Below, in pieces: positions 3,515 to 22,397 of a DNA stretch of 32,289 bases. This DNA comes from an uncultured Lachnospiraceae bacterium (GTDB lineage: Bacteria > Bacillota > Clostridia > Lachnospirales > Lachnospiraceae). The stretch spans positions 1 through 32,289 of the forward strand of contig CANQGA010000016.1 of the NCBI GenBank assembly GCA_947600145.1, given 5' to 3'. The notes beneath the pieces are model-generated. The model saw only the letters and a program-made list of their open reading frames with translations, ran no database searches and was not told the DNA's origin. The translations under genes and the position numbers were made by a program. Within the stretch, counting starts at the first letter, position 1. Each line of letters starts with the position of its first letter.

Positions 3515-3586
3515 GAGCAGTGGGGATTCAGAAGGCTGAACCCGGGTATCGTGCTTGCACGTAAGGCCCGCGCCGGCCTTCTGAAT
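3515..3586 (+). repeat. Variable-arm hairpin element, copy 1 (short form)
   Basis: The element opens with GAGCAGTG (3515-3522). Arms ATTCAGAAGGC (3526-3536) and GCCTTCTGAAT (3576-3586) are perfect complements, with a CGGG/CCCG pair inside. At the tip is TCGTGCTTGCACGTAAG (3549-3565), the reverse complement of the core in the other three copies, containing the small hairpin GTGC-TT-GCAC. The two satellite hairpins and closing stem of the longer copies are absent. It sits in the predicted leader of the GH18 gene, 15 bases after TATACT. The rest of the 3377-3642 gap shows nothing else I can assign. Confidence 0.75.
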
Positions 3587-3642
3587 TACGTCAGTGCGCA
3601 GGAGAGGCTGTCGGATTTGGGGAATACACAGGAGGAAGACTA

Positions 3643-5295
3643 TTGAAACGCAGGATCATTCCGGTACTCGTAGTGATCGTATTGCTGCTCCTGATCGCGG
3701 GAGGCGCCGTCGCGGCGAGATATCTTGAACGTTACATACCGTCGAAGGAGATGGCGGACGTCCGGGAAGCCCTGGAGGTGCCTGACGGCGGGACGGCGTT
3801 TTTCTACAATGATGAGAGGCTGCAGGACGTCGACGCCGTGGTGCGGGACGGCCAGGCTTATCTTCCGCTCGCATGGGTAAATGAGACTCTGAACGAGAAG
3901 TTTTACTGGGACGATGTGGAGAAGCTTCTGGTCTATACGCTGCCGGATACGGTCGTGTACGCGGATAAACGGACGATGGGAAGCGGGGGGAAGCCGCTGC
4001 TTCTGGAAGAGGATGACCGGGTGTATCTGTCCGTGGGGCTGGTGTCGTCTTATACGGATATCCGCGCGGAGCTGTTTGACGACGGCGTTCCGAGGCTGTA
4101 TCTCTATGATGAATGGGAGCCGCGGACCGTGGGGACCGCGGAGAAGGAAGCCCAGGTACGTGTCCGGGGAGGGATCAAGAGCCCGATCCTGACGACGGTG
4201 GCCGGCGGAGGAGAATTCACTGTTCTGGAAAGCGGTGAGGAATGGTCGAAGGTCCGCACGGCCGACGGTTTTATCGGATGGCTGCAGAATAAGCGGATCC
4301 TGAGCACCCGCCCGGAGACGCCGGTCAGTACGTTCGTCGAGCCGGAGTACACAAGTCTCTCGCTGGGAGAGCGGGTGTGCCTGGTCTGGCACCAGACGCT
4401 GGAGGAAGCTGACAACGGCGAGATGGAGCGCCTGATCGCCCGGACGAAGGGAGTCAATGTCATTGCCCCGACCTGGCTGATGCTGACGGACAGCAGCGGC
4501 AATTTCGATTCCCTGGCGGATCAGGCTTATGTGGATAAAGCCCATGAGCTGGGGATGCAGGTGTGGGCGGTAGTCGATAACTTTAACAGGGGAGACGATC
4601 TCGATTCCTCGGTGCTTTTCGCGAAGACTTCCGTGCGGCAGAAGCTGATCGGGGATCTGGTCGCGGAGGCGGAGCGGTTCGGCATCGACGGGATCAATCT
4701 GGATATCGAATCCATTTCCACGGACACGATGCCGGATTATGTGCAGTTCATCCGCGAGATGTCGGCGGCGTGCCGAGTCGCCGGCCTGATCCTTTCCGTG
4801 GATAATTATGTTCCGTCCGGCTATACGGCCGGATATAACCGTGCCGAGCAGGGCAGGGTGGTCGATTATGTGATCATCATGGGCTACGATGAGCATTATT
4901 CCGGCGGGGAGCCGGGGTCCGTGGCGTCGCTTCCCTTCGTGGAAGGAGGGATCAAGGACACGGTGGCGGCCGTTCCGAAGGAGAAGGTGATCAACGCGAT
5001 TCCTTTCTATACGCGTCGGTGGACGGAAGGCGGAGAATCCAAGGCTTTGGGACTGGACGCGGCGCAGGCATGGGTAACGGAGAACAATGTGAGCCTGTAC
5101 TGGCAGGAAGAGCTGGGTCAGTATTACGGAGAATTGCAGGGAGAAGACGCAAGGCAGCTGATCTGGATGGAAGACGAGCGTTCCTTACAGCTTAAGATGG
5201 AATTGATCGACCGGTATGAGCTGGCGGGCGTAGCCTGCTGGAAGCTGGGCCTTGACACGGAGGCCATATGGGATATCGTGAATCCGAATGAATAG
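3643..5295 (+). CDS. Membrane-anchored SH3/GH18 glycosidase
   Basis: A 550-residue exported protein. A lysine/arginine start and hydrophobic stretch (about 6-25) form an uncleaved signal anchor. Residues about 40-150 resemble a stalk domain of the copper amine oxidase N-terminal type. About 165-222 is a bacterial SH3-like domain (VRVRGGIKSPILTTV...GFIGWLQ). The rest is a glycoside hydrolase family 18 barrel with the signature DGINLDIE, where E356 is the expected acid/base and D354 its partner, plus a VIIMGYDEH strand. This layout matches the SleL/YaaH-like peptidoglycan N-acetylglucosaminidases involved in spore cortex or wall turnover, so a wall substrate is likely. The start is TTG 3643, with GGAGG seven bases upstream. 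The next gene follows after 18 bases, indicating co-transcription. A role specifically in spores is inference. Confidence 0.85.
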   Translation: MKRRIIPVLVVIVLLLLIAGGAVAARYLERYIPSKEMADVREALEVPDGGTAFFYNDERLQDVDAVVRDGQAYLPLAWVNETLNEKFYWDDVEKLLVYTLPDTVVYADKRTMGSGGKPLLLEEDDRVYLSVGLVSSYTDIRAELFDDGVPRLYLYDEWEPRTVGTAEKEAQVRVRGGIKSPILTTVAGGGEFTVLESGEEWSKVRTADGFIGWLQNKRILSTRPETPVSTFVEPEYTSLSLGERVCLVWHQTLEEADNGEMERLIARTKGVNVIAPTWLMLTDSSGNFDSLADQAYVDKAHELGMQVWAVVDNFNRGDDLDSSVLFAKTSVRQKLIGDLVAEAERFGIDGINLDIESISTDTMPDYVQFIREMSAACRVAGLILSVDNYVPSGYTAGYNRAEQGRVVDYVIIMGYDEHYSGGEPGSVASLPFVEGGIKDTVAAVPKEKVINAIPFYTRRWTEGGESKALGLDAAQAWVTENNVSLYWQEELGQYYGELQGEDARQLIWMEDERSLQLKMELIDRYELAGVACWKLGLDTEAIWDIVNPNE

Positions 5296-5313
5296 GAACA
5301 GAGGCTTAGACGT

Positions 5314-6771
5314 ATGAGAAGAAGGGGAATTATTGTCCTGCTTGCGGCCGCGGTGGCAATGGGCGGCTGCTCGGGGTACTATCGGCCGTCGTCGGAGTCT
5401 GTCCGGCCGCCGGAAGCATCGGAGACGGCGGAGACGGCGGGAGCGGAGCCGGGATACGATGGGGAGACGATCGCGGCGGCGCAGGGGCCGGGCGGGGGTG
5501 TGCCCGATTCGGGGGATATGACGGTCGAATCGCTGGAGATCGGCGATGGGGGCGGCCGCGCGATGAACCCGGAGATCATGATCGCTTCGGATATTCATTA
5601 TCTGGCGAAGGAACTGACGGATTTCGGGGATGCTTTTGAGAATATGTCGGAGAATGGGGATGGGAAGGTAGTTCCCTATGTCTGGGAGATCCTGGATGCG
5701 TTTCTGGACGTTGTGACAGAACGGAAGCCCCAGGCCCTGATCCTGAGCGGCGATCTGTCGCTTCAGGGCGAACAGCTCAGCCATGAGGCGCTGGCACAGA
5801 AGCTGGCGCGGGCAGAGCGGGCCGGCGTTGAGGTAGTCGTGATCCCCGGAAACCATGATCTGAATAATCCGGCAGCTGCCGGCTATCAGGGAGAGACTGT
5901 GATCCCCGCGGATCAGACGTCTCCGGAGGAGTTCGCGGAGATCTACGCGGATTACGGATACAGTGAGGCGGTAAGCCGTGATCCGGCTTCCCTGAGTTAT
6001 CTGTATGAGCTGTCAGACGGCACCTGGCTTCTGATGCTGGACAGCTGCCAGTATGAGAACGGCAATCAGGTGGGAGGCATGATCCGGTCCGAGACTTATG
6101 AGTGGATGGGAGAATGGCTGGCGAGGGCATGGGAGACCGGCCGGAACGTGATCGCGGTGGCCCATCATAATCTGCTGGATGAGAGCCGCATCTATGAGGA
6201 CGACTGTACCATAGAGCACAGTGAAGAGCTGGAGCGCCTGCTGGACGACTGGGACGTCACCCTGTTTCTGAGCGGCCATCTGCATGTGCAGCATTACCGT
6301 TCTTCAAGGTCCTGCGATATCAATGAGATCGTCACCGGTTCTCTGGCCATGGCGCCGTGTCAGTACGGCGTGCTGAAGTATTTCGGGCCCGAGAAATATG
6401 ATTATCATACCGAGAAGGTGGATGTGAAGGCCTGGGCGGAGCGCCATGATAACCCGGACGCGAACCTGCAGAATTTTGACGAGTACGCGGAGGAATACCT
6501 GCGCACGGTATTCTATAATCAGGCGTATACAAGTCTTCAGGATAAGGGCAAAGAAGAGGCTGACGTGGACGGAATGGCTGATTTCTACGCGTTTTTGAAC
6601 GCCTATTCCGTGGCCGGCCGCGCCGTGGAGATCAGGCAGGAGGCGCTGGATTCCTGGGAGTACATGCTGTGGCAGGAATACAGCCGGACAGATATCAAGA
6701 GCATGTATCTGGATGAGATACTGGAGGACGCGGTCTGCGATTACAATACATTTCAGAGAGATGAAGAGTAG
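5314..6771 (+). CDS. Lipoprotein metallophosphoesterase
   Basis: A 485-residue calcineurin-like phosphoesterase predicted to be tethered outside the membrane. The signal peptide ends in a lipobox, AMGGC, making C19 the lipidated residue; a disordered Glu/Gly/Ala-rich linker runs to about residue 85. All metal-binding motifs are present in order: SDIHYL, SGDLSLQGEQ, PGNHDLNN, AHHNLL and SGHLHVQHY. An intact di-metal hydrolase is therefore expected. The substrate is unknown: a phosphodiester, nucleotide or wall polymer are all possible. The gene follows the GH18 gene by 18 bases, and both products act at the cell surface, so a shared envelope role is plausible. The ATG start has AGAGG nine bases upstream. 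Confidence 0.85.
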   Translation: MRRRGIIVLLAAAVAMGGCSGYYRPSSESVRPPEASETAETAGAEPGYDGETIAAAQGPGGGVPDSGDMTVESLEIGDGGGRAMNPEIMIASDIHYLAKELTDFGDAFENMSENGDGKVVPYVWEILDAFLDVVTERKPQALILSGDLSLQGEQLSHEALAQKLARAERAGVEVVVIPGNHDLNNPAAAGYQGETVIPADQTSPEEFAEIYADYGYSEAVSRDPASLSYLYELSDGTWLLMLDSCQYENGNQVGGMIRSETYEWMGEWLARAWETGRNVIAVAHHNLLDESRIYEDDCTIEHSEELERLLDDWDVTLFLSGHLHVQHYRSSRSCDINEIVTGSLAMAPCQYGVLKYFGPEKYDYHTEKVDVKAWAERHDNPDANLQNFDEYAEEYLRTVFYNQAYTSLQDKGKEEADVDGMADFYAFLNAYSVAGRAVEIRQEALDSWEYMLWQEYSRTDIKSMYLDEILEDAVCDYNTFQRDEE

Positions 6772-6798
6772 CGGCGAAGGACAGAGAAGCCGCTCTTT
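6770..6798 (+). terminator. Possible weak terminator after the phosphoesterase
   Basis: AGCGGC (6770-6775) pairs with GCCGCT (6789-6794), followed by CTTTTC. The stem is short and the T run weak, so read-through into the TIR gene is likely. Confidence 0.4.
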
Positions 6799-6828
6799 TC
6801 ATTCTCCGGTCTTATGGAGGGAACAGCG

Positions 6829-9800
6829 ATGCGATTGGTCTGCGAAACCAGAGAGGGCGTGAGTCCGCAGGGGCTGCCAAGGATCTATTATACCGGGCAT
6901 CCCGCGGATCAGGACATCTATAAGGCGGAAATATTTTCCGATATCTTAAAACTTCAGAACTGCGCCATCTATTATGACGCGGAACCGGAGGCGGCCTGGG
7001 ATGAGGAGGAGCTGCTGCGGGAGATAGAGGGGATGCAGCTGATGGTGTTTCCGGTGACGCACCGGCTCTTCGCCGCGAAGAACCGGACGCTGGATACCGA
7101 GTTTCCATTCGCCGTACGGCGGCACATCCCGGTGCTGCCTCTGCAGGAGGAGCCGGGGCTGGAGGAGATCTTCAATAAGCGGTGCGGCGATCTGCAGATG
7201 CTGCTGCGGCATGATCCGGATCCGATCGCGATGCCCTACGAACAGAAGCTGGAGCAGTTCCTCTCGTCGGTTCTGGTCGGGGACGAGCTGGCCGCTAAGA
7301 TCCGCGCGGCCTTTGACGCGTACATTTTCTTAAGCTACCGCAAGAAGGACCGGAAATATGCCCGGGAGCTGATCCGGCTGATCCATCAGAATGACTTCTG
7401 CCGGGACATTGCCATCTGGTATGACGAATTTCTGACGCCGGGAGAGGACTTTAACGACGCCATCGCGGATGCCCTTGAGAAGAGCAGCCTGTTCGCCCTT
7501 ACGGTGACGCCCAACATCGTGGAGTTCAACAATTACGTCATGCTGCATGAATATCCCAGCGCAAGGAGGATGCAGAAACCCATTCTGCCGGTGGAGATGG
7601 TTCCCACGGACAAGAAGATCCTGCGTCTGGCGTTTGAGGGGCTGCCGCCCTGCGCCAGCGCCTATGAAAAGGGGGAGCTGTCCGGCGCGCTGCTGGAGGC
7701 GGTGCGGCATCTGGCGATCCAGGAAAATGATAACTCCCCGGAGCATAATTTCTTCATCGGACTGGCCTACCTGAACGGGATCGATATGGAGGTGGACCGT
7801 GAGCGGGCCCTGAAACTGATCACCGGCGCGGCGGAGGCGGGGCTTCCGGAGGCGCTTTCGAAGCTGGCGGAGATGTACCGGCGGGGCGAGGGCGTGGAGC
7901 GGAACTGCAGGACTGCCGCCGCATGGCAGAGGAAGCTGGCGGACCGGATGAAGGCAGTCTATGAAGAAAGCGGGTCGGAGAGCGACAGTGTGAACTGGGT
8001 GGACGCGCTCTGGAAGCTGGCCGTTTATCGGGAGGAAACCTCGGAAGGCGTAGCCGGCTGGAGGGAGGCGGCGTCTGCCTGCGAGAAGCTGAACGAACGG
8101 TTCGGCGACTGGTCGACCAGAAGAAATCTGGCATACTGTTACCGGAGGCTTGCCGCGGCGATCCGGAATGTGGATCTCAGCTATGGATACGACGGAGAAT
8201 GCAATAAAGAGGAAAAGGAGATCCGCTTGAAGGAGCTGGAGCTGCGCAGGCAGCTGTGCCATGAGCTGTGGACGCAGGAGGCGAGAACCGATCTGGCGGA
8301 ATGCTGCCGGCGGTTCGGAGACCGGATCATAGACAGAGGGCCGCTTCCCGAATATACCTGGTATGAAGAGGACGAGCCGGAGTACGCGCGGGAGAAGGAA
8401 AAGTATGACCGGGAATATGAACAGTCGTGTGAGGAAAGAAAAGCATGCTACCGCGAAGGCCTGACCGTATACCGTCAGCTGTTTCGGGACACCGGCGAAG
8501 ACCGGTACAGGCGCTGTATCCTGTATATGGAAAAAGAGCTGAGCATGATGGAGGCGGATCCTCAGGAGCAGGAGCGCGCGAGGATGGCGTATCTGCTCTT
8601 CTGCAGGCAGTGGGTACGCAGGGAGGACAGCGCGGAAGCGCGGCAGGAGCTTGCGGGGATCTGTGAGGAAGAGGGAGATTCCTGCGGCGAAGACCGGAGC
8701 CGGGCGATCGGATTCTACACGGAGGCGCTGGATCAGCGGTTGAAGCTGTGTGAGGCCGGAGCGCCGCTGCACCGTTTAAAAGATCTCGCCGGAAAGCTGG
8801 AGAAGGTCTGCCGGGACGCCGGGATGCTAAAGCGGGCGGAAGAATGCGCACGGCGCGTCCGTGAGGCGGAGGACCGGTGGAAGACAGGGCGCGACCGGAA
8901 AGCGGAGAGCCTCCTTCATGATGGTCCGGAGGATCTGGCGGATCGGGAAACGCTGGTGAAGATCTTTGAAGAACAAAGCGATGAGTACAGCAAAGCGGGA
9001 GATTATGACAGCGCCCTGGAATGCTGCCTGAAGGCGCTGGAACAGTGGTCCCTGCTGGTTCAGGAAACAGGAACTGCCGAGCACTGGGAAGATGTCTGTG
9101 TCTTCCTGCACAAAATAAACGGTCTCTGGGAGAAAACGGGCGTATCAGGCTATGACCGGGTTCTGCGGAGCAGTCTGGAAGTGCTTGGACAGTGGGTCCG
9201 GCTGTTTCGGGAGACCGGCGCCGACAGTCAGTGGGGAGAGATCTGCAACGTGTTGAACCAAATGGGAGATCTCTGTGAGAAGGCGGAGGATCCCATGCAG
9301 GCCAAAAAGGACTATCTGGCCGTCCTGGAGCCGGTGTGGACGAGGATCGGTGCGGCCGGCCGCGAGTTCATGGTGCGCCTTTGCAGTGAACTGAGCTGGC
9401 TCTCACGGGAGACCGGGGATCCGGCGCGGGCGAAGGAATTCCTTCTGTGGGCGGCGGGGAAGATGGGGGATATAGCCAGTCCGCTGTGGATCGCCGGACT
9501 TGGGATGCTGGAAGAGGAGATCATCACGCAGGAGCGCATCATGGCGGAGAAGGGCCTTTCTAAATGGGATTACCAATACGGAACCGACGCGAAGGATGTC
9601 AGATACTATACGATGATGGATCTTGAGGATACATATGACATCTACGATTCCCTGGCGTCCATTTGCCGGGAGACCGGAGATCTTGCCGGCGCGGAGACTT
9701 ATTATCAGACGATGATCGGGATCTGCGAGCGGATCACAGATCAGGTGTCTTCGGAACCGGTGCTGAAGATGCTGGCCGGTCTGTACGGCGGGATGGCGGA

Positions 9801-9882
9801 GACCTGCGAAGAGGAGGGGCTGTCGGATGAGGCCGCGGAATACAGGAAGAAGGCAGAAACTGTGAGCGCTGAAGCCGGATAA
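6829..9882 (+). CDS. Tandem-TIR protein with Sel1/TPR-like repeats
   Basis: A large protein of 1,017 residues. ATG 6829 is preferred over the in-frame ATG 6814 because GGAGGG lies seven bases before it. Residues about 164-257 are a clear TIR domain: YIFLSYRKKDR, IAIWYDE (194-200), LTPGEDF, VTPNIVEF and KPILPVEM, with E241 in LHEYPSA at the position of the NADase glutamate. Residues about 17-105 look like a second, diverged TIR: RIYYTGHPADQ, CAIYYD (45-50), MVFPVTHRLF and HIPVLPLQ, with E91 in DTEFPFA. Residues about 306-375 hold two Sel1-like repeats (LAYLNGIDMEVDRERALKLI, MYRRGEGVERN). The rest is Glu/Arg-rich helical repeat sequence resembling TPRs. TIR domains can hydrolyse NAD+ or act as scaffolds. 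Neither activity is shown here, and no defence partner gene is adjacent. Confidence 0.85.
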   Translation: MRLVCETREGVSPQGLPRIYYTGHPADQDIYKAEIFSDILKLQNCAIYYDAEPEAAWDEEELLREIEGMQLMVFPVTHRLFAAKNRTLDTEFPFAVRRHIPVLPLQEEPGLEEIFNKRCGDLQMLLRHDPDPIAMPYEQKLEQFLSSVLVGDELAAKIRAAFDAYIFLSYRKKDRKYARELIRLIHQNDFCRDIAIWYDEFLTPGEDFNDAIADALEKSSLFALTVTPNIVEFNNYVMLHEYPSARRMQKPILPVEMVPTDKKILRLAFEGLPPCASAYEKGELSGALLEAVRHLAIQENDNSPEHNFFIGLAYLNGIDMEVDRERALKLITGAAEAGLPEALSKLAEMYRRGEGVERNCRTAAAWQRKLADRMKAVYEESGSESDSVNWVDALWKLAVYREETSEGVAGWREAASACEKLNERFGDWSTRRNLAYCYRRLAAAIRNVDLSYGYDGECNKEEKEIRLKELELRRQLCHELWTQEARTDLAECCRRFGDRIIDRGPLPEYTWYEEDEPEYAREKEKYDREYEQSCEERKACYREGLTVYRQLFRDTGEDRYRRCILYMEKELSMMEADPQEQERARMAYLLFCRQWVRREDSAEARQELAGICEEEGDSCGEDRSRAIGFYTEALDQRLKLCEAGAPLHRLKDLAGKLEKVCRDAGMLKRAEECARRVREAEDRWKTGRDRKAESLLHDGPEDLADRETLVKIFEEQSDEYSKAGDYDSALECCLKALEQWSLLVQETGTAEHWEDVCVFLHKINGLWEKTGVSGYDRVLRSSLEVLGQWVRLFRETGADSQWGEICNVLNQMGDLCEKAEDPMQAKKDYLAVLEPVWTRIGAAGREFMVRLCSELSWLSRETGDPARAKEFLLWAAGKMGDIASPLWIAGLGMLEEEIITQERIMAEKGLSKWDYQYGTDAKDVRYYTMMDLEDTYDIYDSLASICRETGDLAGAETYYQTMIGICERITDQVSSEPVLKMLAGLYGGMAETCEEEGLSDEAAEYRKKAETVSAEAG

Positions 9883-9967
9883 CTGCCCCTGGGAAGCCGA
9901 AAGCCGCTTCGATGAAGAGGGGTAACCGCGTTGGGGCGGAGGAGCGGCGCACGGGCAGGCGGTCCGT

Positions 9968-10723
9968 TCACCGGGTATTCAGATATTCCAGGATCCCCAT
10001 ATGGATCGTCCACGCTGTCCGGTCCTGATACTCCTCCGTATTCAGGAGCGCGGCCTCGGACCAGTTGCTTAAGAAGCCGCATTCCACGATGACGATAGGA
10101 CTTTTGACGTGGAGCAGCAGGTAGTAGCTGTCATTGGCTTTGGCGGAGCGGGTGTTGGCGGCGCCCAGCACATAGTCGAAGCGCTTCTGAAGGATCTCGG
10201 CCAGACGGCGGCCGTTCTCGGAGGACTTGTAATAGAATACCTGTGCGCCCTTCACGGACTCCTCGTGGTAGCTGTTCTGATGGATGCTGACCACCAGGTC
10301 GGGAGAGGCGTCGTTGATCAGCCGGCAGCGGTTTCGCATGTCGGCTGTTTTTTTGTTGGAATCGGATTCACCGCAGAGGGCGGTGTCTGAGTCGCGGGTC
10401 ATGACGACCTCCACGTCGGAGGCTTCCAGATACTGCTTTACCCGCTGGGCGATCCTGAGATTGATGTCCTTTTCCAATGAGCCGTCCACGGCGATCTTGC
10501 CGGGGTCGAAACCGCCGTGGCCGCTGTCGAGGACGACCACCGGTTTCCGGTCGGCCGCGATACCGAAATAAGGATCCGCGTCCGCGCGGCCGGAAGAGGC
10601 GGCGGAGGTTCTACCGGCCGCCTGTGCCGATACGATGACCGCCGCCTGCCGGGACAGCTGGAAGACAAGAAAAAACATCAAAATGGCCATGAAGAATTCC
10701 ATGCGGAATAAATTTGGTCTCAA
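9968..10723 (-). CDS. cwlD: CwlD-like N-acetylmuramoyl-L-alanine amidase
   Basis: A 251-residue Amidase_3 enzyme that cleaves the amide bond between N-acetylmuramic acid and the stem peptide. A hydrophobic segment at about 9-33 exports or anchors it. Zinc and catalytic motifs are complete: DSGHGGFDPG (H69), E84 in GSLEKDINL, SIHQNSY (H148) and VECGFLSN (E214). Size and motif set fit CwlD, which makes muramic-delta-lactam in spore cortex, but a vegetative amidase of the same family cannot be excluded. The TTG start at 10723 has GGGAG seven bases upstream; the next ATG, at codon 8, has no ribosome-binding site. It converges with the TIR gene (85 bases apart) and diverges from the Sua5 gene. Confidence 0.8.
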   Translation of the reverse strand: MRPNLFRMEFFMAILMFFLVFQLSRQAAVIVSAQAAGRTSAASSGRADADPYFGIAADRKPVVVLDSGHGGFDPGKIAVDGSLEKDINLRIAQRVKQYLEASDVEVVMTRDSDTALCGESDSNKKTADMRNRCRLINDASPDLVVSIHQNSYHEESVKGAQVFYYKSSENGRRLAEILQKRFDYVLGAANTRSAKANDSYYLLLHVKSPIVIVECGFLSNWSEAALLNTEEYQDRTAWTIHMGILEYLNTR

Positions 10724-10796
10724 AGGAGGGCTCCCGAATAAAGAAATTCTTTTTATTTATAGAAAAAATATGAGGAAAAAAGAACAGGTTTTTGAC

Positions 10797-10825
10797 TTTA
10801 CATGAAACCCGGAAAGAAGTATACT
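10797..10825 (+). promoter_or_regulatory. SigmaA promoter for the Sua5 operon
   Basis: TTTACA (10797-10802) and TATACT (10820-10825) are exactly 17 bases apart, predicting a start near 10832 and a leader of about 45 bases. The AT-rich stretch 10740-10790 between this and cwlD probably also holds the cwlD promoter, which I could not define. Confidence 0.65.
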
Positions 10826-10877
10826 GTCCATATTGGCAGCAGCCGGTGGAATATCGGGATCGAAGGTTTTAAACGGT

Positions 10878-12035: not shown

Positions 12036-12061
12036 TCAGAAAAAGAAGGAGGGAGAACAAC

Positions 12062-14936: not shown

Positions 14937-14946
14937 GGCACAGGGT

Positions 14947-15510: not shown

Positions 15511-15571
15511 GAAGCGGAAAACTGCAGCCGGATGATTACGGAAGGATCAGAAATCGAGGAGGTTTATAGAG

Positions 15572-16054
15572 ATGAGAGAGAAGATTTTAGCGGTTCTGGA
15601 GAAGAATGCCCGCATTGATCTGAAGGATCTGGCGGTTCTGCTCGGCGAGAGCGAGGCCGCTGTCGCCAACGCCATTGCCGATATGGAGAAGGAGCATATC
15701 ATCTGCGGCTATCATACCCTGATCAACTGGGACAATACGTCTGAAGAGAAGGTCATGGCCCTGATCGAGGTGAAGGTGACGCCTCAGCGCGGGATGGGAT
15801 TTGACAAGATCGCCGAGCGCATTTATCAGTACAACGAGGTGAACGCCGTGTATCTGATGTCCGGCGCCTACGATTTCACCGTATTTATCGAGGGAAAAAC
15901 CATGAAAGAGGTGGCCCTGTTCGTCTCCAGCAAGCTGTCCACGCTGGATTCCGTTCTGAGTACCGCCACCCATTTCGTGCTGAAGAAATACAAGGACCAC
16001 GGGACGGCCCTGGTGGAAGAAGTACATGATGAAAGGATGCTGGTTACCCCATGA
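15572..16054 (+). CDS. Lrp/AsnC-family regulator
   Basis: A 160-residue transcription regulator. Residues about 1-50 form the helix-turn-helix (DLKDLAVLLGESEAAVANAIADMEKEHII) and about 65-140 the ligand-sensing RAM domain (VMALIEVKVTPQRGMGFDKIAE..., VYLMSGAYDFTVFIEGKTMKEV). Such proteins usually bind an amino acid and form octamers. Its stop overlaps the aminotransferase start (ATGA at 16051-16054), so it likely senses a substrate or product of that enzyme and regulates its own operon. The ATG has GAGGAGG about nine bases upstream. The ligand is unknown. Confidence 0.9.
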   Translation: MREKILAVLEKNARIDLKDLAVLLGESEAAVANAIADMEKEHIICGYHTLINWDNTSEEKVMALIEVKVTPQRGMGFDKIAERIYQYNEVNAVYLMSGAYDFTVFIEGKTMKEVALFVSSKLSTLDSVLSTATHFVLKKYKDHGTALVEEVHDERMLVTP

Positions 16055-17238
16055 GAAATCCACTTTCCGAGACGATCGTCCAGATCGAGCCTTCCGGCAT
16101 CCGCAAATTTTTCGACATTGTCAGCGAGATGAAAGACGCGATCTCCCTCGGCGTGGGCGAGCCGGATTTTGACACGCCCTGGCATGTGCGGGAGGAAGGC
16201 ATTTATTCGCTGGAGAAAGGCCGCACGTTCTACACCGCCAACTCCGGTCTTATGGAGCTGCGCCGTGAGATCGCGAATTACCTGTACCGGCGCTGCGATA
16301 TGAGCTATCAGCCGGAAGCGGAGATCCTGGTGACTGTGGGCGGAAGCGAGGCCATTGATATCGCCCTGCGCGCCATGCTGGATCCCGGCGACGAGGTGCT
16401 GATCCCGCAGCCGTGTTTCGTGTCCTATGTGCCGTGCACGATCCTGGCGGGAGGAACGCCGGTGGTGATCGAACTGGAGGAGAAGGACCAGTTCAAGCTG
16501 ACGCCTGAGAAGTTGCTTGAGAAGATCACGGACAAGACGAAGATCCTGATCATGCCGTTTCCCAATAACCCCACCGGCGCGGTCATGCGCCGCGACGAGC
16601 TGGAGGAGATCGCGCGGATCGTGATCGAGAAGGATCTGTTCGTGATCTCCGATGAGATCTACTGTGAGCTGACGTTCGGCGACGAACGCCATGTGTCCAT
16701 CGCGTCCCTGCCGGGGATGAAGGAGCGGACCGTGCTGATCAACGGATTTTCCAAATCCTACGCGATGACCGGATGGCGTCTGGGTTACGCGGCGGCGCCG
16801 AAGGTGATCTTAAAGCAGATGCTGAAGATCCACCAGTTCGCGATCATGTGCGCCCCGACCACAAGTCAGTACGCCGCGGTGGCGGCGCTGCGCGACGGCG
16901 ACGCGGATGTGGAGATGATGCGGGAGTCCTACGACCAGAGACGCCGGTTCGTGCTGAACGCGTTTAAGGAAATGGGCCTGGACTGCTTTGAGCCGGAGGG
17001 GGCGTTCTACGCGTTCCCCAGCATTAAGCGGTTCGGCATGTCCTCGGATGAATTCGCCAACCGGTTTTTGCAGGAGGAGAAGGTGGCCGTCGTGCCGGGA
17101 AGCGCGTTCGGCGCCTGCGGCGACGGATATCTGCGTGTTTCTTACGCCTATTCGCTCAAGAGCCTGAAGGAAGCGCTGGGGCGGATGGCGAAATTTGTGG
17201 AACGACTGGATAAAGAGCAGAAGCAGACCGGACGCTGA
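16051..17238 (+). CDS. Class I PLP aminotransferase
   Basis: A 395-residue fold-type I aminotransferase, AspC/PatA-like. The PLP lysine is K235 in NGFSKSYAMTGWRLGY. Other markers are LGVGEPDFDTPWHV near the N-terminus, TVGGSEAIDIALRAMLDPGDEVL, PFPNNPTGAV and FVISDEIYCELTF. Length is normal. Substrate specificity (aspartate, aromatic or branched amino acids) cannot be read from these motifs. Translational overlap with the Lrp-type gene is a common arrangement in Clostridia and suggests a regulator-enzyme pair. Confidence 0.92.
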   Translation: MRNPLSETIVQIEPSGIRKFFDIVSEMKDAISLGVGEPDFDTPWHVREEGIYSLEKGRTFYTANSGLMELRREIANYLYRRCDMSYQPEAEILVTVGGSEAIDIALRAMLDPGDEVLIPQPCFVSYVPCTILAGGTPVVIELEEKDQFKLTPEKLLEKITDKTKILIMPFPNNPTGAVMRRDELEEIARIVIEKDLFVISDEIYCELTFGDERHVSIASLPGMKERTVLINGFSKSYAMTGWRLGYAAAPKVILKQMLKIHQFAIMCAPTTSQYAAVAALRDGDADVEMMRESYDQRRRFVLNAFKEMGLDCFEPEGAFYAFPSIKRFGMSSDEFANRFLQEEKVAVVPGSAFGACGDGYLRVSYAYSLKSLKEALGRMAKFVERLDKEQKQTGR

Positions 17239-17326
17239 GCGTCTGGACGAATCCGTCGCTCCGGTGATGTCAAACGCAAACTGCCGGGCGGGTATGGCGG
17301 CTGCCCCACGTAAAAGGAGGAATCCT

Positions 17327-17827
17327 GTGAACATCGTACTTCTTGAGCCGGAAATGCCGGCCAATACCGGCAACATCGGCCGCACCTGCGTCGCTACCGG
17401 CACGCGGCTCCATCTGATCCGTCCGCTGGGCTTCCAGCTGAACGAGAGGATGTTAAAACGTGCCGGCCTGGACTACTGGGACAAGCTGGATGTGACGGTT
17501 TACGATGATTATGACGATTTTCTGGCCCGCCATCCCGGCGGGCGGATCTATATGGCGACGACGAAAGGGCGGAAGGTCTATACGGATGTCCATTACGACC
17601 CGGACGCCTGGATCATGTTCGGCAAGGAGAGCGCCGGCATTCCGGAAGAGATCCTTCTGGAGAATCAGGAAAACTGTGTGAGGATCCCCATGTGGGGCGA
17701 TATCCGCTCCCTGAATCTGTCGAATTCCGTCGCCATCGTTCTCTACGAAGCCCTGCGGCAGAACGGATTCGAAAAAATGACGCTGCAGGGGGAGCTGCAC
17801 CGGCTCCGCTGGAAAGAAAATGAGTAA
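17327..17827 (+). CDS. trmL: tRNA (cytidine/uridine-34-2'-O)-methyltransferase
   Basis: A 166-residue SPOUT methyltransferase that methylates the ribose of the wobble nucleotide of tRNA-Leu isoacceptors using S-adenosylmethionine. Diagnostic segments are EPEMPANTGNIGRTC (about 7-21), FGKESAGIPEEIL and RIPMWGDIRSLNLSNSVAIVLYEALRQ, which form the trefoil-knot cofactor site. The GTG start at 17327 has a strong AAGGAGG six bases upstream; the upstream in-frame extension overlaps the aminotransferase and has no family similarity. A hairpin terminator follows. Confidence 0.92.
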   Translation: MNIVLLEPEMPANTGNIGRTCVATGTRLHLIRPLGFQLNERMLKRAGLDYWDKLDVTVYDDYDDFLARHPGGRIYMATTKGRKVYTDVHYDPDAWIMFGKESAGIPEEILLENQENCVRIPMWGDIRSLNLSNSVAIVLYEALRQNGFEKMTLQGELHRLRWKENE

Positions 17828-17831
17828 ATGG

Positions 17832-17869
17832 AAGGGCACTGCATGTGAATGAGCGCATACAGTGCCTTT
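17832..17869 (+). terminator. Terminator between convergent trmL and GNAT genes
   Basis: GGCACTG (17835-17841) pairs with CAGTGCC (17860-17866), with an extra CATG/CAT pairing inside, and is followed by TTT. On the minus strand the hairpin ends in CTTCC, so it may also weakly serve the GNAT gene. Confidence 0.6.
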
Positions 17870-17870
17870 G

Positions 17871-18389
17871 CTATACCAGTTCCTTCATCAGGATCGCCCG
17901 TCGCTTTCCCCCGTGCTTTATCTTCTCTCCGATGATCCGGTAGCCCTGTTTCAGGCCGTTGTTCATACTGTAAATATTGTCCGGATGGATCGTGCCCATC
18001 AGGTAGCGGAAGCCCAGCGCGCGCAGGTCCGCCTCGGCGGCCTGCATCAGGCGGTACTGGAGCTGGTGGCCCCGGTACTGGGGAAGGACCGCGGCGGTGT
18101 CCATGTGGGCGACCCTGGGGAGCTCTTCGTCCGCAAGACCGGCGTCACGTCCCATGTTCTCGTCGGAGAGGCCGGGGATGACTGCCAGAAAGATGCCGGC
18201 AACGGCGCCGGTTTCGGTTTCGACGGCCTTGTAGCCAAGGCCTTCGCCGGAGGTGAGCATACGATAGGTATAGTCGGAATTGTCCGCGAAGTACCAGTCT
18301 TTGTTATCCATGCCGCGCCAGACAGTCTGGATGATGTCTGCGAAGAGCTGGTAGTCCGCGGCATCGGCACGTTCGATCTTGAAATCCAT
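17871..18389 (-). CDS. GNAT-family N-acetyltransferase
   Basis: A 172-residue acetyltransferase. The acetyl-CoA loop is AVLPQYRGHQLQYRLMQAAEADLRALG, preceded by the strand RVAHMDTAAV and followed by YLMGTIHPDNIYSMNNGLKQGY, the usual GNAT order. The substrate (small molecule, peptide or protein) is unknown. ATG 18389 is chosen: AGGAGG lies about 11 bases upstream, while the open frame beyond runs into low-complexity Pro-rich leader. The predicted leader is unusually long, about 280 bases, and carries a variable-arm element plus two GC-rich hairpins, so post-transcriptional control is possible. Confidence 0.85.
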   Translation of the reverse strand: MDFKIERADAADYQLFADIIQTVWRGMDNKDWYFADNSDYTYRMLTSGEGLGYKAVETETGAVAGIFLAVIPGLSDENMGRDAGLADEELPRVAHMDTAAVLPQYRGHQLQYRLMQAAEADLRALGFRYLMGTIHPDNIYSMNNGLKQGYRIIGEKIKHGGKRRAILMKELV

Positions 18390-18441
18390 GGGGCGGGTGA
18401 CCTCCTTTTTTTGAGTGAGGGGGGTGGACGGGTGGATGGGG

Positions 18442-18522
18442 GACGGGCTTAAGGGCCCGGGAGGGCCCTTTGCGCGTGTGTGGGGGTGGACGGGCTTAAG
18501 GGCCGGAGGCCCTTTGCGCGTG
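18442..18522 (-). repeat. Duplicated GC-rich hairpin in the GNAT leader
   Basis: The block GACGGGCTTAAGGGCC...GGCCCTTTGCGCGTG occurs at 18442-18478 and again at 18489-18522, differing by small indels. Each copy folds on itself: AAGGGCCC/GGGCCCTT (8 bp) in the first and AAGGGCC/GGCCCTT (7 bp, triloop) in the second. Both lie between the variable-arm element and the GNAT start codon. Neither has a T run that would make it a standard terminator. Confidence 0.75.
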
Positions 18523-18534
18523 GGGCTGGGGAAC

Positions 18535-18664
18535 GCAGTGCGGGGGCTCAAAAGCCTGGCGGCTTTTTCGCCCACGGGCTGGCGCCCTATGAAATCAAGC
18601 GCGGAAGTTCGCGCTTACGTGCAAGCACGACGCGGGAACTTCTGCGTTTGATTTCGCACTGCTC
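18535..18664 (-). repeat. Variable-arm hairpin element, copy 2 (cloverleaf form)
   Basis: Read on the minus strand it starts GAGCAGTGCG (18664-18655). The closing stem pairs 18535-18542 (GCAGTGCG) with 18655-18662 (CGCACTGC). The long hairpin has ends GAAATCAA (18591-18598) / TTGATTTC (18648-18655), inner pairing GAAGTT/AACTTC and CGCG/CGCG, and the shared core at 18614-18630 on its tip. Two small hairpins follow: GGGC/GCCC (18576-18579, 18584-18587) and AAAAGCC/GGCTTTT (18550-18556, 18561-18567). A TATACT promoter element lies 12 bases before it. Confidence 0.8.
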
Positions 18665-18676
18665 CCTGCTTACGTG

Positions 18677-18685
18677 AGTATATCA
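18677..18685 (-). promoter_or_regulatory. Extended -10 promoter for the GNAT leader
   Basis: The minus strand reads TGA-TATACT, an extended -10 element, 12 bases before the conserved GAGCAGTG start of element copy 2. No convincing -35 is seen. The geometry closely matches the promoter ahead of copy 1. Confidence 0.5.
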
Positions 18686-18726
18686 GAAAAAACATCAGAT
18701 AGGTAGTGGTATATTTTATATTTTTG

Positions 18727-18735
18727 TGGTAGACT
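18727..18735 (+). promoter_or_regulatory. Candidate promoter for rubredoxin
   Basis: TGG-TAGACT is an extended -10-like sequence in an AT-rich island, about 63 bases before the rubredoxin start. Another candidate, TGG-TATATT, begins at 18707. Neither has a good -35. Confidence 0.35.
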
Positions 18736-18797
18736 AGAAAAAAAGAGGGAGGGGAAGTGCGTTTTCCGCTCCGAAAATAAAAAGGAGGATACTGACG

Positions 18798-18956
18798 ATG
18801 AAGAGATACGTGTGTTTAGTGTGCGGCTATGTGTATGATCCGGAAGAGGGCGATCCCGAGAACGGCATCGATCCGGGGACTGAGTTTGAAGATCTTCCTG
18901 ATGATTGGGTCTGCCCGATGTGCTATGTAGGAAAGGATCAGTTTGAGGAGGAATAA
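18798..18956 (+). CDS. Rubredoxin
   Basis: A 52-residue one-iron electron carrier. Cysteine pairs are [15 protein letters not shown] (C6, C9) and [16 protein letters not shown] (C39, C42), and the acidic middle with [14 protein letters not shown] is typical. In Clostridia rubredoxin usually passes electrons to oxygen- or peroxide-reducing enzymes; no partner gene is adjacent. The second knuckle reads CPMCYVG where most rubredoxins have CPxCGxG, so a bulky Tyr replaces the conserved Gly. The ATG follows AAAGGAGG. It is a single-gene unit with its own terminator. Confidence 0.93.
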
Positions 18957-18961
18957 GAGCA

Positions 18962-18989
18962 AGCCGGGAATCGCTTCCCGGCTCCTTTT
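18962..18989 (+). terminator. Rubredoxin terminator
   Basis: AGCCGGGAA (18962-18970) pairs perfectly with TTCCCGGCT (18975-18983) around a four-base loop, followed by CCTTTT. This is a 9-bp intrinsic terminator, five bases after the stop codon. Confidence 0.85.
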
Positions 18990-18995
18990 ATTTCT

Positions 18996-19112
18996 CCATG
19001 CATGCAGGGCGCCGGTGACGTTTTGTATGTATTTCCATGCATGCAGGGCGCCGGTGACGTTTTGTATGTATTTCCATGCATGCAAGGCGCCGGTGACACC
19101 TTGCATGTATTT
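18996..19112 (+). repeat. Three tandem 39-bp repeats
   Basis: Units span 18996-19034, 19035-19073 and 19074-19112. The first two are identical; the third differs at five positions, all transitions. Each can fold ATGCARGG against the YYTTGYAT-like sequence near its end. In unit 3 the core eight pairs are all Watson-Crick; in units 1 and 2 four of them become G-U pairs on the plus strand. The block lies between the rubredoxin terminator and the yhaN stop. It can be read as a short coding repeat on either strand, but no supported gene covers it. Confidence 0.9.
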
Positions 19113-19120
19113 CTGCCGCG

Positions 19121-20983
19121 TCAGATCCGGATCAGATTGTACTCGATCTGGTTGGCCGTCAGCATCTGGGCCTCCCGCTGGTGGCAGGTGAAGATGATCA
19201 TCTGGCCGCCGTAGGATCTGGCCAGCCATTTCAGAGCGCTCTTTAACCGCTCGTCGTCATAGAGCACGAAGCTGTCGTCGAAGATCAGGGGCATGTTCTC
19301 CTTGTCGCCCTGGATCAGCTTGGCCGCCGCCAGGCGCAGGGCCAGGTAGATCTGATCCATGGTGCCGCTGGACACCTGTTCGATGGGCACCAGCTTGGTT
19401 CGGGTGTTCATGAAGGCGTTCAGGTTTTCGTCGATGCTCATGCTGGAGTAGATGCCGCCGGTGATGCCGGCGATCAGGTCCGATGCCGTCTTGTTCAGGT
19501 ACAGTCCGAAGGAATCCCGGATGGACATGGACAGATCGGTCATGGTCTCCTGGGCCAGGTCGATGGCGGCCAGTTCCTGCGAGATCCGCGCGTTCTCCGC
19601 CAGCGTGTGCTTTAAGGATTCCATCTCATTTTTATAGCCGGCGAGAAGCTCCAGCTTCTTCTCCAGTTCCCATTGCAGCTTCTGCTGGCGCGCGATGGCG
19701 TCGCTGCAGTCGTTCTGCTTCGTGTTCAGCATGCCCAGCTCTTTGGTGATCGTCTGCACGGCTGCCTCGGTCTGCTCCGTGACGGCGTTCAGACGCTTGA
19801 ACTCCGCCATCCTCGCGCGAAACGTCTCCAGGGCCTGGTCGGACAGATCCGTGTCGCCGATATGCCGGCGGAAGGTCTCCTGCAGCGTCTGGCTGCTGAC
19901 GGAAAGTTCTTTATTCAGCCGTTTGGCGCGGGCTGTTAAGATCCGAAAACCCACGCAGCAGCAGGCCGCGGCTGTGATTAGGATGCCGGAGGCGAACAGG
20001 GGAGGAAGCCCGATATCGTACAGGAAACCGATCCGGTCGCCCAACAGGTAGACCGCGACGGCTCCGACCGCCAGGATCACGGTCAGGGCGAGCAGAACGC
20101 CGGTCATGACGCGGCGCGATCTCTTTTCGCACGCCGTCTTTACAGCCCGGTAATCGGTATAGAGTTCTTCCGTCTGTTTCTCATACTGTTCGATGGAATT
20201 CTGATCTGTAAACTGGTTCTGTTCCAGAAGCTGGCGGCCTCTGGCGGCTTTCTGAAGCAGCTCTTCCTTTTCCGCCTGCTTCTTCTCGATCGCGCTGTGG
20301 GTGTCGCTGCGCAGCTTCTGGAATTCAGGAAGCTGGTTTTCGTATTCGGGCGCGGAGACATCCTTTTCGATGGCCTTGATCTCTCCCAGAAGCGTCGTGT
20401 AGGAGCGCGCCGCTTCCGGAACCAGCTGGCTTTCCAGCTCTTTGCGCTGCGCTTTCAGGTACGCGGAGGCTTTGGTGATATTGAGCGCCATATTGCCGGA
20501 TGTGTTCATGTTGGCGATATAGTTTTTGAGCTCCGATACCATACCGTCGTCGGTGGCGCTTTTAAGCTGGCCGATGCTGATGGTGTTGTTGTAGGCGGTC
20601 TCGCTTAATCCGCCCAGAAGTTCATTCATAAAGGAGTCGGCGGCTTCCATTTCCTTTCCGAGGGTCTCGTCGATGATGCGGAAGTCCTTCTTATCCTTTC
20701 GGAAGGTCCGTTCTATGCGGTAAATGTGCCCTTCATGCTCCAGCCGCAGGGAACCTTCGTAGGTTCCGCTGTCTTCCCATGGCTCATACTGGCTGTACAG
20801 GTCCTTTCTGGCGGCCCGTCCGCGCTGGGGCTTCAGCCCGAAGAGCATACAGCGGATAAATGTATGCAGCGTGGATTTGCCGGCTTCGTTCTTGCCGTAT
20901 ACCACGTTGATGCCGTCTGCGAATGAAATGGCGCGGTCGTGGAATTTCCCAAATCCTTTTATCTGAAGTTCCAGGAATTTCAT
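19121..20983 (-). CDS. yhaN: YhaN-like SbcC-type ATPase with membrane hairpin
   Basis: A 620-residue SMC/Rad50-like ATPase. Walker A is GKNEAGKST (30-38); the ABC signature is VSSGTMDQ (537-544); Walker B is PLIFDDSF (565-572). Coiled-coil arms run about 170-290 and 355-490. Between them two hydrophobic segments (about 293-313 and 327-348) replace the zinc-hook region, so the arms probably meet at the membrane. This layout is that of YhaN; at 620 residues it is clearly shorter than the Bacillus protein I recall, through shorter arms. It should pair with the YhaO nuclease, whose stop lies two bases before this ATG and whose end contains the AAAGGAG box. The complex is expected to process DNA ends or aberrant structures. 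Confidence 0.85.
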   Translation of the reverse strand: MKFLELQIKGFGKFHDRAISFADGINVVYGKNEAGKSTLHTFIRCMLFGLKPQRGRAARKDLYSQYEPWEDSGTYEGSLRLEHEGHIYRIERTFRKDKKDFRIIDETLGKEMEAADSFMNELLGGLSETAYNNTISIGQLKSATDDGMVSELKNYIANMNTSGNMALNITKASAYLKAQRKELESQLVPEAARSYTTLLGEIKAIEKDVSAPEYENQLPEFQKLRSDTHSAIEKKQAEKEELLQKAARGRQLLEQNQFTDQNSIEQYEKQTEELYTDYRAVKTACEKRSRRVMTGVLLALTVILAVGAVAVYLLGDRIGFLYDIGLPPLFASGILITAAACCCVGFRILTARAKRLNKELSVSSQTLQETFRRHIGDTDLSDQALETFRARMAEFKRLNAVTEQTEAAVQTITKELGMLNTKQNDCSDAIARQQKLQWELEKKLELLAGYKNEMESLKHTLAENARISQELAAIDLAQETMTDLSMSIRDSFGLYLNKTASDLIAGITGGIYSSMSIDENLNAFMNTRTKLVPIEQVSSGTMDQIYLALRLAAAKLIQGDKENMPLIFDDSFVLYDDERLKSALKWLARSYGGQMIIFTCHQREAQMLTANQIEYNLIRI

Positions 20984-20985
20984 GG

Positions 20986-22059
20986 TTAACTCCTTTCGTC
21001 CGTCGTGCGCAGGAGCGCGTGAATGCCGTAGTAGAGTGCCTTTTTCTCCACCGGACTTAAGTCCGGCTTGTCGAATGCCCGGATATAGAAGCCGATCATG
21101 TCGCTGGGGTGTTCGGCGAACAGTTCGGTGAAATCATACTGCGGTTCCGATTCATCTGTGATATCCGCGACGCGGTAACGGGAGGCCAGGTTCTCCAGGT
21201 CGAATTCGATCTCCGGATCCCGCATGCCGCGGATGCGGAAACGGTAGATATGCTGCGGCCCCCGTTTCTTGATCTCCTGGGAGATCTTGAGTTCCAGCTC
21301 CGCGTTGGTCGTGCGGGGCGTGATATTGACGATCAGCGGTATGTACTGGGAACGGCACAGACGGACAAATTCCAGAGAGTCCACCTGCCGGGTCACCGGA
21401 TTGACATTTCCCAGGAATACGCCGTGCTGCCCGGTCTCCGTATGGTCAAGCGGTTCGGGAGAGCCGGGAAATGCGGCCTTGTTCTCGGCCACGACCTCCG
21501 GTTTGTGGATATGGCCCAGGGCAATGTAGGAATAGTTGGACGCCGCCAGGGCGCTTCTGTCCAGCGGCAGATGGGCCGTATCGCCGCCGTGGAGCATCAG
21601 GATATGGATACGGCCGTCAAAGGAGACCTCCAGCTTATCCGCCGGAAGACTTTCGCGGATCTCCGCCGAATGGTAGCTGAATCCGTGGACCTCCACATTG
21701 CAGTCCTCGAAAAAGACGCTCTCCATCTCCCCGCTCATCAGGCAGGTGACGTTGGGCGCCCAGGAGAAGCTCAGGATCGCCGAGTTGGGCCGGATACGGT
21801 CGTGATTGCCGGCGATCAGCACCACATGGACGGAAGGGATCGTGGAGAACAGATAGTTGATCTCCTTCAGATCCTTCTGCAGGGGCTGGCGGTGGAACAG
21901 GTCGCCGGAGATGAACAGGAAATCCACCTCCCGCGTCCGCGCCAGATCGATGATCTGCGCAAATGTATCCCTGATGGCCTGTGCCCGCTCCCTGCTCCAT
22001 GGCTTGTCGCCGTCCGGGACCATGCCCCAGTGGATGTCGGCGGTGTGAAGGAATTTCAT
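20986..22059 (-). CDS. yhaO: YhaO-like SbcD/Mre11-type nuclease
   Basis: A 357-residue metallophosphoesterase nuclease. Metal-binding motifs are complete and ordered: TADIHWG (D8, H10), SGDLFHR, AGNHDRI, LHGGD and GHIHKPE. After the catalytic domain (about 1-230) a capping region follows (RTTNAELELKISQEIKKRGP...). The family subunit cuts DNA when driven by its YhaN/SbcC ATPase partner, which is encoded two bases downstream. GGGAGG precedes the ATG by about nine bases. The gene lies 336 bases downstream of asnS on the same strand; that interval is filled by two variable-arm hairpin elements and their remnants, and I found no clear promoter in it. Confidence 0.88.
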   Translation of the reverse strand: MKFLHTADIHWGMVPDGDKPWSRERAQAIRDTFAQIIDLARTREVDFLFISGDLFHRQPLQKDLKEINYLFSTIPSVHVVLIAGNHDRIRPNSAILSFSWAPNVTCLMSGEMESVFFEDCNVEVHGFSYHSAEIRESLPADKLEVSFDGRIHILMLHGGDTAHLPLDRSALAASNYSYIALGHIHKPEVVAENKAAFPGSPEPLDHTETGQHGVFLGNVNPVTRQVDSLEFVRLCRSQYIPLIVNITPRTTNAELELKISQEIKKRGPQHIYRFRIRGMRDPEIEFDLENLASRYRVADITDESEPQYDFTELFAEHPSDMIGFYIRAFDKPDLSPVEKKALYYGIHALLRTTDERS

Positions 22060-22152
22060 ATGTGATGTCCTCCCATTTTCTTGTGTGCTTGAGTGCGCGG
22101 TCTACTGGATACGCGAGTCCGCAGTGCGCGGCGGGGCTTGATACGCGGGTCC

Positions 22153-22260
22153 GCAGTGCGGCGCTCAAAAGCCTGCGGCTTTTTCGCGTGAGGGCTTCGC
22201 CCTATGAAATTGAACCTCCTGCAGGCCGCTTACGTGCAAGCACGACACGGCTTGCAGGAG
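22153..22260 (-). repeat. Variable-arm hairpin element, copy 3 (yhaO side)
   Basis: The long hairpin has arms CTCCTGCA (22216-22223) and TGCAGGAG (22253-22260), inner GGCCG/ACGGC-like pairing, and the shared core at 22229-22245. Satellite hairpins are AGGGC/GCCCT (22191-22195, 22199-22203) and AAAAGCC/GGCTTTT (22167-22173, 22177-22183). GCAGTGCG is at 22153-22160, but its closing partner is missing: the next sequence is the end of copy 4. Sequence 22146-22209 repeats exactly at 22264-22327. Further remnants (ACGCGAGTCCGCAGTGCG) occur near 22111-22128. Confidence 0.8.
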
Positions 22261-22270
22261 AGTCGGGTCC

Positions 22271-22395
22271 GCAGTGCGGCGCTCAAAAGCCTGCGGCTTT
22301 TTCGCGTGAGGGCTTCGCCCTATGAAAGATGACACAGAAGCATCTGCTTACGTGCAAGCACGACGCAGATGTTTCTGCACCATCTTTCGCACTGC

Positions 22396-22397
<2 letters not shown>
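22271..22397 (-). repeat. Variable-arm hairpin element, copy 4 (asnS side)
   Basis: Full cloverleaf form. The closing stem pairs GCAGTGCG (22271-22278) with CGCACTGC (22388-22395). The long hairpin has GAAAGATG (22324-22331) / CATCTTTC (22381-22388), inner CAGAAGCATCTGC against GCAGATGTTTCTG, and the core at 22347-22363. Satellite hairpins are AGGGC/GCCCT (22309-22313, 22317-22321) and AAAAGCC/GGCTTTT (22285-22291, 22295-22301). The minus-strand start, TGAGCAGTGCG, overlaps the TGA stop of asnS, so the element begins exactly where the coding region ends. Confidence 0.82.

Follow-up and report, generated by a model that had tools for sequence, protein, structure and literature searches.

Dispersed hairpins behind host promoters in Lachnospiraceae: a probable relative of the Clostridiales-1 RNA with signs of mobility

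We analysed a 32,289-nucleotide stretch of DNA from an uncultured Lachnospiraceae bacterium (contig CANQGA010000016.1 of assembly GCA_947600145.1, hereafter the window), in which a sequence-only reading had noticed four long hairpins with one shared 17-base tip and with arms that differ from copy to copy. Our preferred reading, held with moderate confidence, is that these hairpins are copies of a mobile structured element related to the Clostridiales-1 RNA, placed in the promoter-leader position of host genes and with arms that are regenerated. The most informative feature is the promoter that stands beside many copies, which the sequence-only reading did not contain. Below, the window's element is called family A; the same tip is placed between different ends in family B (ends GTTACTATTCACAG/CTGTGAATAGTAAC) and family C (ends ATGATGCAAGGGTC/GACCCTTGCATCAT). 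Comparisons between copies use the strand complementary to the core as given, since that strand carries the conserved -10 boxes and the matches to the Rfam model of Clostridiales-1 (RF01699).

The core CTTACGTGCAAGCACGA occurs four times without mismatch in the window, at 3549-3565 on the minus strand and at 18614-18630, 22229-22245 and 22347-22363 on the plus strand, against a chance expectation of 0.05 copies (mean of shuffles). All four cores are the tips of long hairpins that are stable when folded, with z-scores on the strand opposite the core of -3.96, -7.32, -6.57 and -4.10 for the copies at 3510, 18533, 22269 and 22159, respectively, so that the sequence-only claim of four hairpins sharing a tip is borne out. 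Copy 1 (at 3515) is oriented opposite to the other three. Three copies carry the small hairpins AAAAGCC/GGCTTTT and GGGC/GCCC and the one at 3515 has neither; the closing stem GCAGTGC/GCACTGC is complete in the copies at 18535 and 22271, and the copy at 22153 has lost its right half. The four-way layout proposed for these copies stands. The features of the four copies are:

3494..3499, plus strand: -10 box TATACT, directly 5' of copy 1 (sequence; alignment of relatives)
3500..3599, plus strand: copy 1, a minimal form without the two small hairpins (covariance model at 3510-3599, 37.8 bits, outside the training set; fold)
3526..3548, plus strand: 5' arm of copy 1, 23 nt (sequence)
3549..3565, plus strand: conserved tip TCGTGCTTGCACGTAAG of copy 1 (exact core match)
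3566..3588, plus strand: 3' arm of copy 1 (sequence)
18677..18682, minus strand: -10-like box TATACT, 5' of copy 2 (sequence; alignment of relatives)
18533..18669, minus strand: copy 2, complete element (covariance model, 118 bits, in the training set; fold)
18656..18662, minus strand: closing stem of copy 2, 5' strand (sequence, pair count)
18633..18655, minus strand: 5' arm of copy 2 (sequence)
18614..18630, minus strand: conserved tip of copy 2 (exact core match)
18591..18613, minus strand: 3' arm of copy 2 (sequence)
18576..18587, minus strand: small hairpin GGGC/GCCC of copy 2 (sequence, pair count, fold)
18550..18567, minus strand: small hairpin AAAAGCC/GGCTTTT of copy 2 (sequence, fold)
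18535..18541, minus strand: closing stem of copy 2, 3' strand (sequence, pair count)
22269..22402, minus strand: copy 3, complete element (covariance model, 131 bits, in the training set; fold)
22366..22388, minus strand: 5' arm of copy 3 (sequence)
22347..22363, minus strand: conserved tip of copy 3 (exact core match)
22324..22346, minus strand: 3' arm of copy 3 (sequence)
22159..22265, minus strand: copy 4, 5' end lost (covariance model, 70.5 bits, outside the training set; fold)
22229..22245, minus strand: conserved tip of copy 4 (exact core match)
22206..22228, minus strand: 3' arm of copy 4, whose partner arm is truncated (sequence)

On the strand opposite the core, family A forms a four-way junction of a closing stem, a 23-bp hairpin with the GUGCUUGCAC tip and two small hairpins, and this fold is supported by covariation. 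The 62 distinct tip copies found in the genus were filtered to 48 by arm pairing, to 42 with both sides of the closing stem located, to 38 for alignment (L002, L014, L016 and L061 dropped) and to 33 before the pair count (L026, L037, L057, L064 and L074 dropped), a procedure that favours intact copies. Among these 33 intact copies, 96.6% of pair cells form, compared with a mean of 75.2% in shuffles; changes on both sides are seen in 29 of 43 pairs overall and in 23 of 24 arm pairs, and sliding the partners out of register cuts pairing to 33-47%. The outer pair of the tip is C-G in 27 copies and U-A in 6, changing in step, and the tip stem variants also co-vary (CGTG../..CACG and TGTG../..CACA, with CGCG and CATG forms rarer). 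The sequence-only reading had suggested a covariance model as a check: the model built from these copies recovers all four window copies, the two lowest-scoring ones untrained, and six loci from other genera at more than 100 bits.

A pattern scan of public genomes returned 67 stretches, including Lacrimispora celerecrescens, Hespellia stercorisuis, Enterocloster and many gut metagenome assemblies, with 66 distinct family A copies. A TATAAT-like hexamer (at least 5 of 6 matches) lies at one fixed position before 43 of the 66, and before 37 of 55 after removal of similar flanks, whereas the count at other positions in these 55 has a mean of 0.6 and a maximum of 3. A -35 box (at least 4 of 6 matches, spacing 16-18) accompanies 22 of the 37 copies with a -10 box; at shifted positions the mean is 5.1 and the maximum 9. 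At the opposite end of the element, no fixed position has a -10 box in more than 2 of the 45 copies with a locatable 3' end. In genome G190, 13 of 22 family C ends likewise follow a -10-like hexamer (null 4-7%). The box is also kept where the hairpin is missing: in 7/7 aligned relatives at window position 3515, none of them with the hairpin, in 6/6 at the L065 locus, in 1/1 at the L060 locus and, as an extended -10, in 3/3 relatives without the element at one L. celerecrescens locus. Some of these hairpin-less sites carry an apparent stub or decayed element. At a second L. celerecrescens locus, TGTAAT, a hexamer holding a stop codon, precedes the element, and one relative is empty there. The direction of change at these loci we infer by parsimony. 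Both the fixed -10 spacing on one side only and the keeping of the -10 box without the hairpin are apparently new.

The preferred reading would connect these observations as follows. In it, the element is small (about 130-150 bp), dispersed and non-autonomous, and folds on the strand that the neighbouring promoter would transcribe. Many copies keep a constant distance to a -10 box in front of them (some, instead, follow a TATAAT-like hexamer at a stop codon), with the same end promoter-ward, and the element is predicted to form the 5' end of an existing host transcript. Insertion may be directed to the -10/+1 region, with A+T-rich or melted DNA as its probable target, as opposed to a mere survival of copies at promoters, and a putative factor would recognise tip and junction. 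The arms would be regenerated by template switching during replication, so that they need only match each other, and a capped 5' hairpin may be tolerated by the messenger or even protect it.

A downstream open frame on the same strand, with a motif like a ribosome-binding site, is present in 53 of the 66 copies within 420 nt of the search start, which was set about 55 nt behind the arms. Ten of these 53 genes, picked by eye and scanned, are housekeeping genes without a common pathway: the translation genes LepA and three tRNA synthetases, and further NusB, LGT, AddB, a DnaB_2 protein, an AAA protein and a glucosamine-phosphate isomerase. These genes bear on an alternative that we consider unlikely, namely an ordinary selected RNA (a trans-acting small RNA, or a general 5' leader stabilising or tuning the messenger) in which only arm pairing matters and which is spread by ordinary duplication. 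The conserved tip and junction, the strong covariation and the fixed promoter spacing all speak for it, as does the fact that several species retain the same copy at one locus. Messengers in Firmicutes are also known to be protected by a stable hairpin at their very 5' end. The lack of a single shared pathway among the ten genes speaks against it, as do two further points, the behaviour of the arms and the dispersal of the copies.

In 48 of the 62 tip copies, Watson-Crick pairs form at 15 or more of the 23 arm positions. Ten copies fall below this cut (eight look like truncated tandem units and two pair with an offset); of the remaining four, one runs off the end of a contig and three carry arms that had been counted before. 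Across the genus, arm length is 23 nt with few exceptions. The arms fall into lineages: pairs of copies sharing at least 10 of 17 central positions make up 8.7% of the pairs among the 48 copies, compared with 0.6% in shuffles, and this excess consists of pairs of similar arms, many from one locus. When pairs sharing at least 13 of 23 positions are left out, the other 922 pairs average 4.75 of 17, against 4.5 in shuffles. The claim that arms are unrelated between copies thus holds between lineages; within a lineage, arms are similar. Guide- or spacer-like arms were thought unlikely, as the arms of a given locus change in concert from one species to the next; the arms were not searched against genomes.

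RNA helices that evolve by single steps usually show a large G-U excess. On the transcribed strand of the 33 intact copies, the 759 arm cells comprise 708 Watson-Crick, 9 G-U, 21 A-C and 21 other combinations, and counted as independent mismatch events there are 8 G-U, 16 A-C and 19 other. G-U is hence rarer than A-C on the transcribed strand, and both strands are far from the strong G-U excess of such a helix. This rarity, and the mostly coupled way in which the arms change, are apparently new. A control on tRNA acceptor stems (4 tRNAs, 28 pairs, 3 G-U, 0 A-C) was too small for use. Between species at the same locus, 64 coupled and 31 uncoupled arm position differences were counted in 21 non-independent comparisons, the uncoupled ones being 12 G-U, 11 A-C and 8 other; without the two comparisons of L023, which has replaced arms and belongs to the group of the window copy at 18535, the counts are 46 and 21. 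The sequence-only reading had left a choice between selection of the structure and regeneration of an inverted repeat, and this choice is narrowed, since the mismatch counts and the dominance of coupled two-sided changes agree better with regeneration than with selection acting solely on an RNA helix. Template switching would account for the arm pattern, with strong selection for perfect DNA pairing or core-strand folding as the alternative. In the sections of PMC8794818 cited here, template switching is proposed to create and maintain RNA hairpins and is known to perfect quasi-palindromes.

Family A copies are dispersed, and they are present or absent at orthologous loci, which is apparently new. 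Nine places in the window's genome (G000) match CTTNNGTGCAAGCACNA, and at least one match is found in 21 of 26 genomes of the genus; the copy number in G000 is a lower bound, as two of its contigs (C186 and C238) break off within or next to tandem arrays of the element. Across 397 genomes sampled from the bacterial family, CTTNNGTGCAAGCACNA has a match in 58 and the backward control in 2; the matches in these 58 belong to families A, B and C, to other elements and in some cases probably to chance. The cultured strain L. celerecrescens 152B holds eight copies with differing flanks and the same ends. An sbcD-like gene, which in the window lies behind copies 3 and 4 at the end of asnS, was found in 23 of the 26 genomes of the genus; the element stands beside it in 7 and is missing in 16. 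These absences, together with the differing flanks around constant ends, also count against an ordinary selected RNA spread by duplication. The tandem pair in the window represents two arm lineages at one site, where relatives carry single copies of either lineage; its near-identical flanking parts with different arms are explained by the meeting of these two lineages, and neighbouring tandem copies may have been homogenised.

Family B has 14-bp terminal inverted repeats, and 8-bp target duplications at 16 of the 27 copies with both flanks (6 exact, 10 with one mismatch), compared with a mean of 0.6 in shuffles. Genome G264 (loci L107-L116 and, in part, L153-L180) carries the family B ends CTGTGAATMGTAAC, with at most one mismatch, 331 times in 2.8 Mb, and many of them lie close to contig ends, as after heavy expansion. 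Three further loci (L142, L143 and L146) have the same tip between ends that by eye fit none of the three families. Family B lends its repeats, its duplications and its 331 ends in one genome to the notion that family A is a plain miniature inverted-repeat transposable element (MITE), moved by cut and paste by a transposase whose gene lies elsewhere, with tip and fold as mere recognition structure and the promoter site as an A+T-rich target choice or a matter of survival. We regard this as quite improbable for family A, where no such ends or duplications were seen, where the -10 spacing is exact to the base, and whose tip also stands between the other ends of families B and C and so is not tied to one transposase.

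Several results weigh against a mobile, promoter-directed relative of Clostridiales-1, our preferred reading. No -10 box precedes 23 of the 66 copies, and neither a target-site duplication nor a terminal inverted repeat was seen in family A at the loci compared by eye. Stub-like remains are present at some hairpin-less sites (window 18535 in two species, the L065 locus in other species), which means that loss as well as gain has occurred. The core strand leans to G-U, with 21 against 9 cells in the 33 intact copies (p 0.04), or 16 G-U against 8 A-C as independent events (p 0.15) and 33 GT against 26 AC in the 48 copies, some with partial arms (p 0.43). In scans with E limits of 1, 1 and 0.01, RF01699 matched family A in 8 of the 26 loci tried, at 31.1-42.6 bits where the gathering score is 48, and it gave no match to the window copies at E up to 10. 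Unrelated microRNA hairpin models match some family A copies at similar E-values; these matches were set aside as hairpin artefacts, and they also weaken the sub-threshold RF01699 matches, so that tip and layout, more than score, carry the case for kinship. The family A model, which gives family B loci about 38-54 bits, gives the Clostridiales-1 loci of family C 20-30 bits. The antisense strand of family A's own hairpins scores at least as well (21.6-35.3 bits), so the model says nothing for kinship between A and C. As to the mover, three genomes rich in family B gave no match to the IS66 transposase (PF03050), and five of the ten genomes tested for the Y1 transposase gave none; all of these five carry family A or C.

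An IS66 partner was rejected on that search. The Y1 result bears in addition on the idea that family A moves as single-stranded DNA, carried by a Y1 (HUH) transposase to the melted promoter strand, like palindromes derived from IS200/IS605. One-sided insertion behind a fixed hexamer, a hairpin body and the lack of a visible target duplication would suit such a route. We nonetheless hold it to be very improbable, since Y1 (PF01797) was not found in G000, whose assembly is about 94% complete, nor in G005, G010 and G013 with family A or G190 with family C, and ten Y1 loci showed neither the tip nor the family A 5' end motif; a Y1 partner was rejected for this lack of association. A phage or plasmid origin was rejected as well, after searches of phages with one window copy, of plasmids with one composite query and of viral contigs for an exact match of the family A pattern gave no match.

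Going beyond family A, we tentatively suggest, with somewhat less than even confidence, a class of structured mobile elements with Clostridiales-1 as its named member. Insertion of such elements, in a single orientation, would fall precisely between -10 box and start point, so that they become the first part of the messenger; their arms would be kept by template switching and not by sequence selection, and the tip would be a handle shared by otherwise unrelated families. To our knowledge, it would be unusual for insertion in bacteria to be aimed at the regions where transcription starts, and a literature search on small mobile elements aimed at promoters gave no relevant paper among the matches listed. 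The orphan Rfam family RF01699 gains a testable biology (movement, promoter targeting and 5' leaders) and a subfamily that its current model mostly misses, and promoter targeting becomes testable in the cultured strain 152B with its eight copies. The arms may also offer a natural case for the template-switch origin and maintenance of RNA hairpins proposed in PMC8794818.

The neighbourhoods of the window copies differ. Copy 1 sits between its -10 box and a glycoside hydrolase 18 gene at 3643-5295. Copy 2 is upstream of a gene at 17871-18389 on the minus strand, which has no Pfam match at 1e-5 and which we take to be an acetyltransferase. Copy 3 lies where asnS ends, at its stop codon, and separates it from the sbcD-like gene (20986-22059, minus strand); copy 4 follows in tandem on the side of that gene. 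An SMC-like ATPase and the SbcD-like nuclease (19121-22059; Pfam AAA_23/AAA_15 and Metallophos) thus lie directly behind two palindromic copies, which is curious because SbcCD cuts hairpins. Flanked by the ATPase gene and a presumably rubredoxin-like gene, at 18990-19130, is a short tandem repeat of about 39 bases, one frame of which reads repeated CMQGAGDVLYVFP.

Among known systems, the REP/RAYT repeats, tagged by GTAG/CGTC in the part of PMC3733652 cited, are short dispersed hairpins like family A. In family A, GTAG precedes GCAATGAGC in 13 of 66 copies and so is not conserved; family A further differs in lying behind promoters, in its four-way fold and in that no Y1 transposase was found in the window's genome. 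A comparison with Rfam and REP/RAYT, also suggested in the sequence-only reading, yielded the sub-threshold RF01699 matches and no REP/RAYT-type transposase in G000. Bacterial MITEs, represented here by family B, share with family A the tip inside, the dispersal and the lack of a coding gene; the terminal inverted repeats and 8-bp duplications of family B were seen by eye in neither form at the family A loci compared.

The closest likeness is to Clostridiales-1, of which the cited part of PMC2864571 (2010) gives one table row: 'probably' an RNA, not cis-regulatory and not a switch. Among the matches listed, the name or accession also occurs in three papers on other subjects. A literature search with the tip letters gave nothing relevant among the matches listed. 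Family C in G190 is Clostridiales-1, matching RF01699 at 69-121 bits in 6/6 of the loci given. A candidate T-box leader, scoring slightly under its threshold (L136, 1151-1365; 90.1 of 93 bits), lies 28 bases before one Clostridiales-1 copy. The sequence-only statement that no named family has this design needs amending, in that tip and layout are those of Clostridiales-1; it stands in so far as family A itself stays below the gathering score. Unlike in Clostridiales-1 are the arms, the closing stem and most other sequence of family A. The GGGAG/CGGA internal loop of the last hairpin has a similar motif in part of family A, for instance in the aligned copy L054, which keeps a GGAG/CGGA-like loop, and is absent from the window copies. 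Judging from tip and layout, family A is probably a diverged relative of Clostridiales-1 and not a member, and of the possibilities listed earlier both an RNA class and a mobile palindrome seem to hold in part. The two share the four-way layout of a closing stem and three hairpins (complete in two of the four window copies) and, on the same strand, the long first hairpin with the GCUUGC tip that the Clostridiales-1 consensus writes in upper case.

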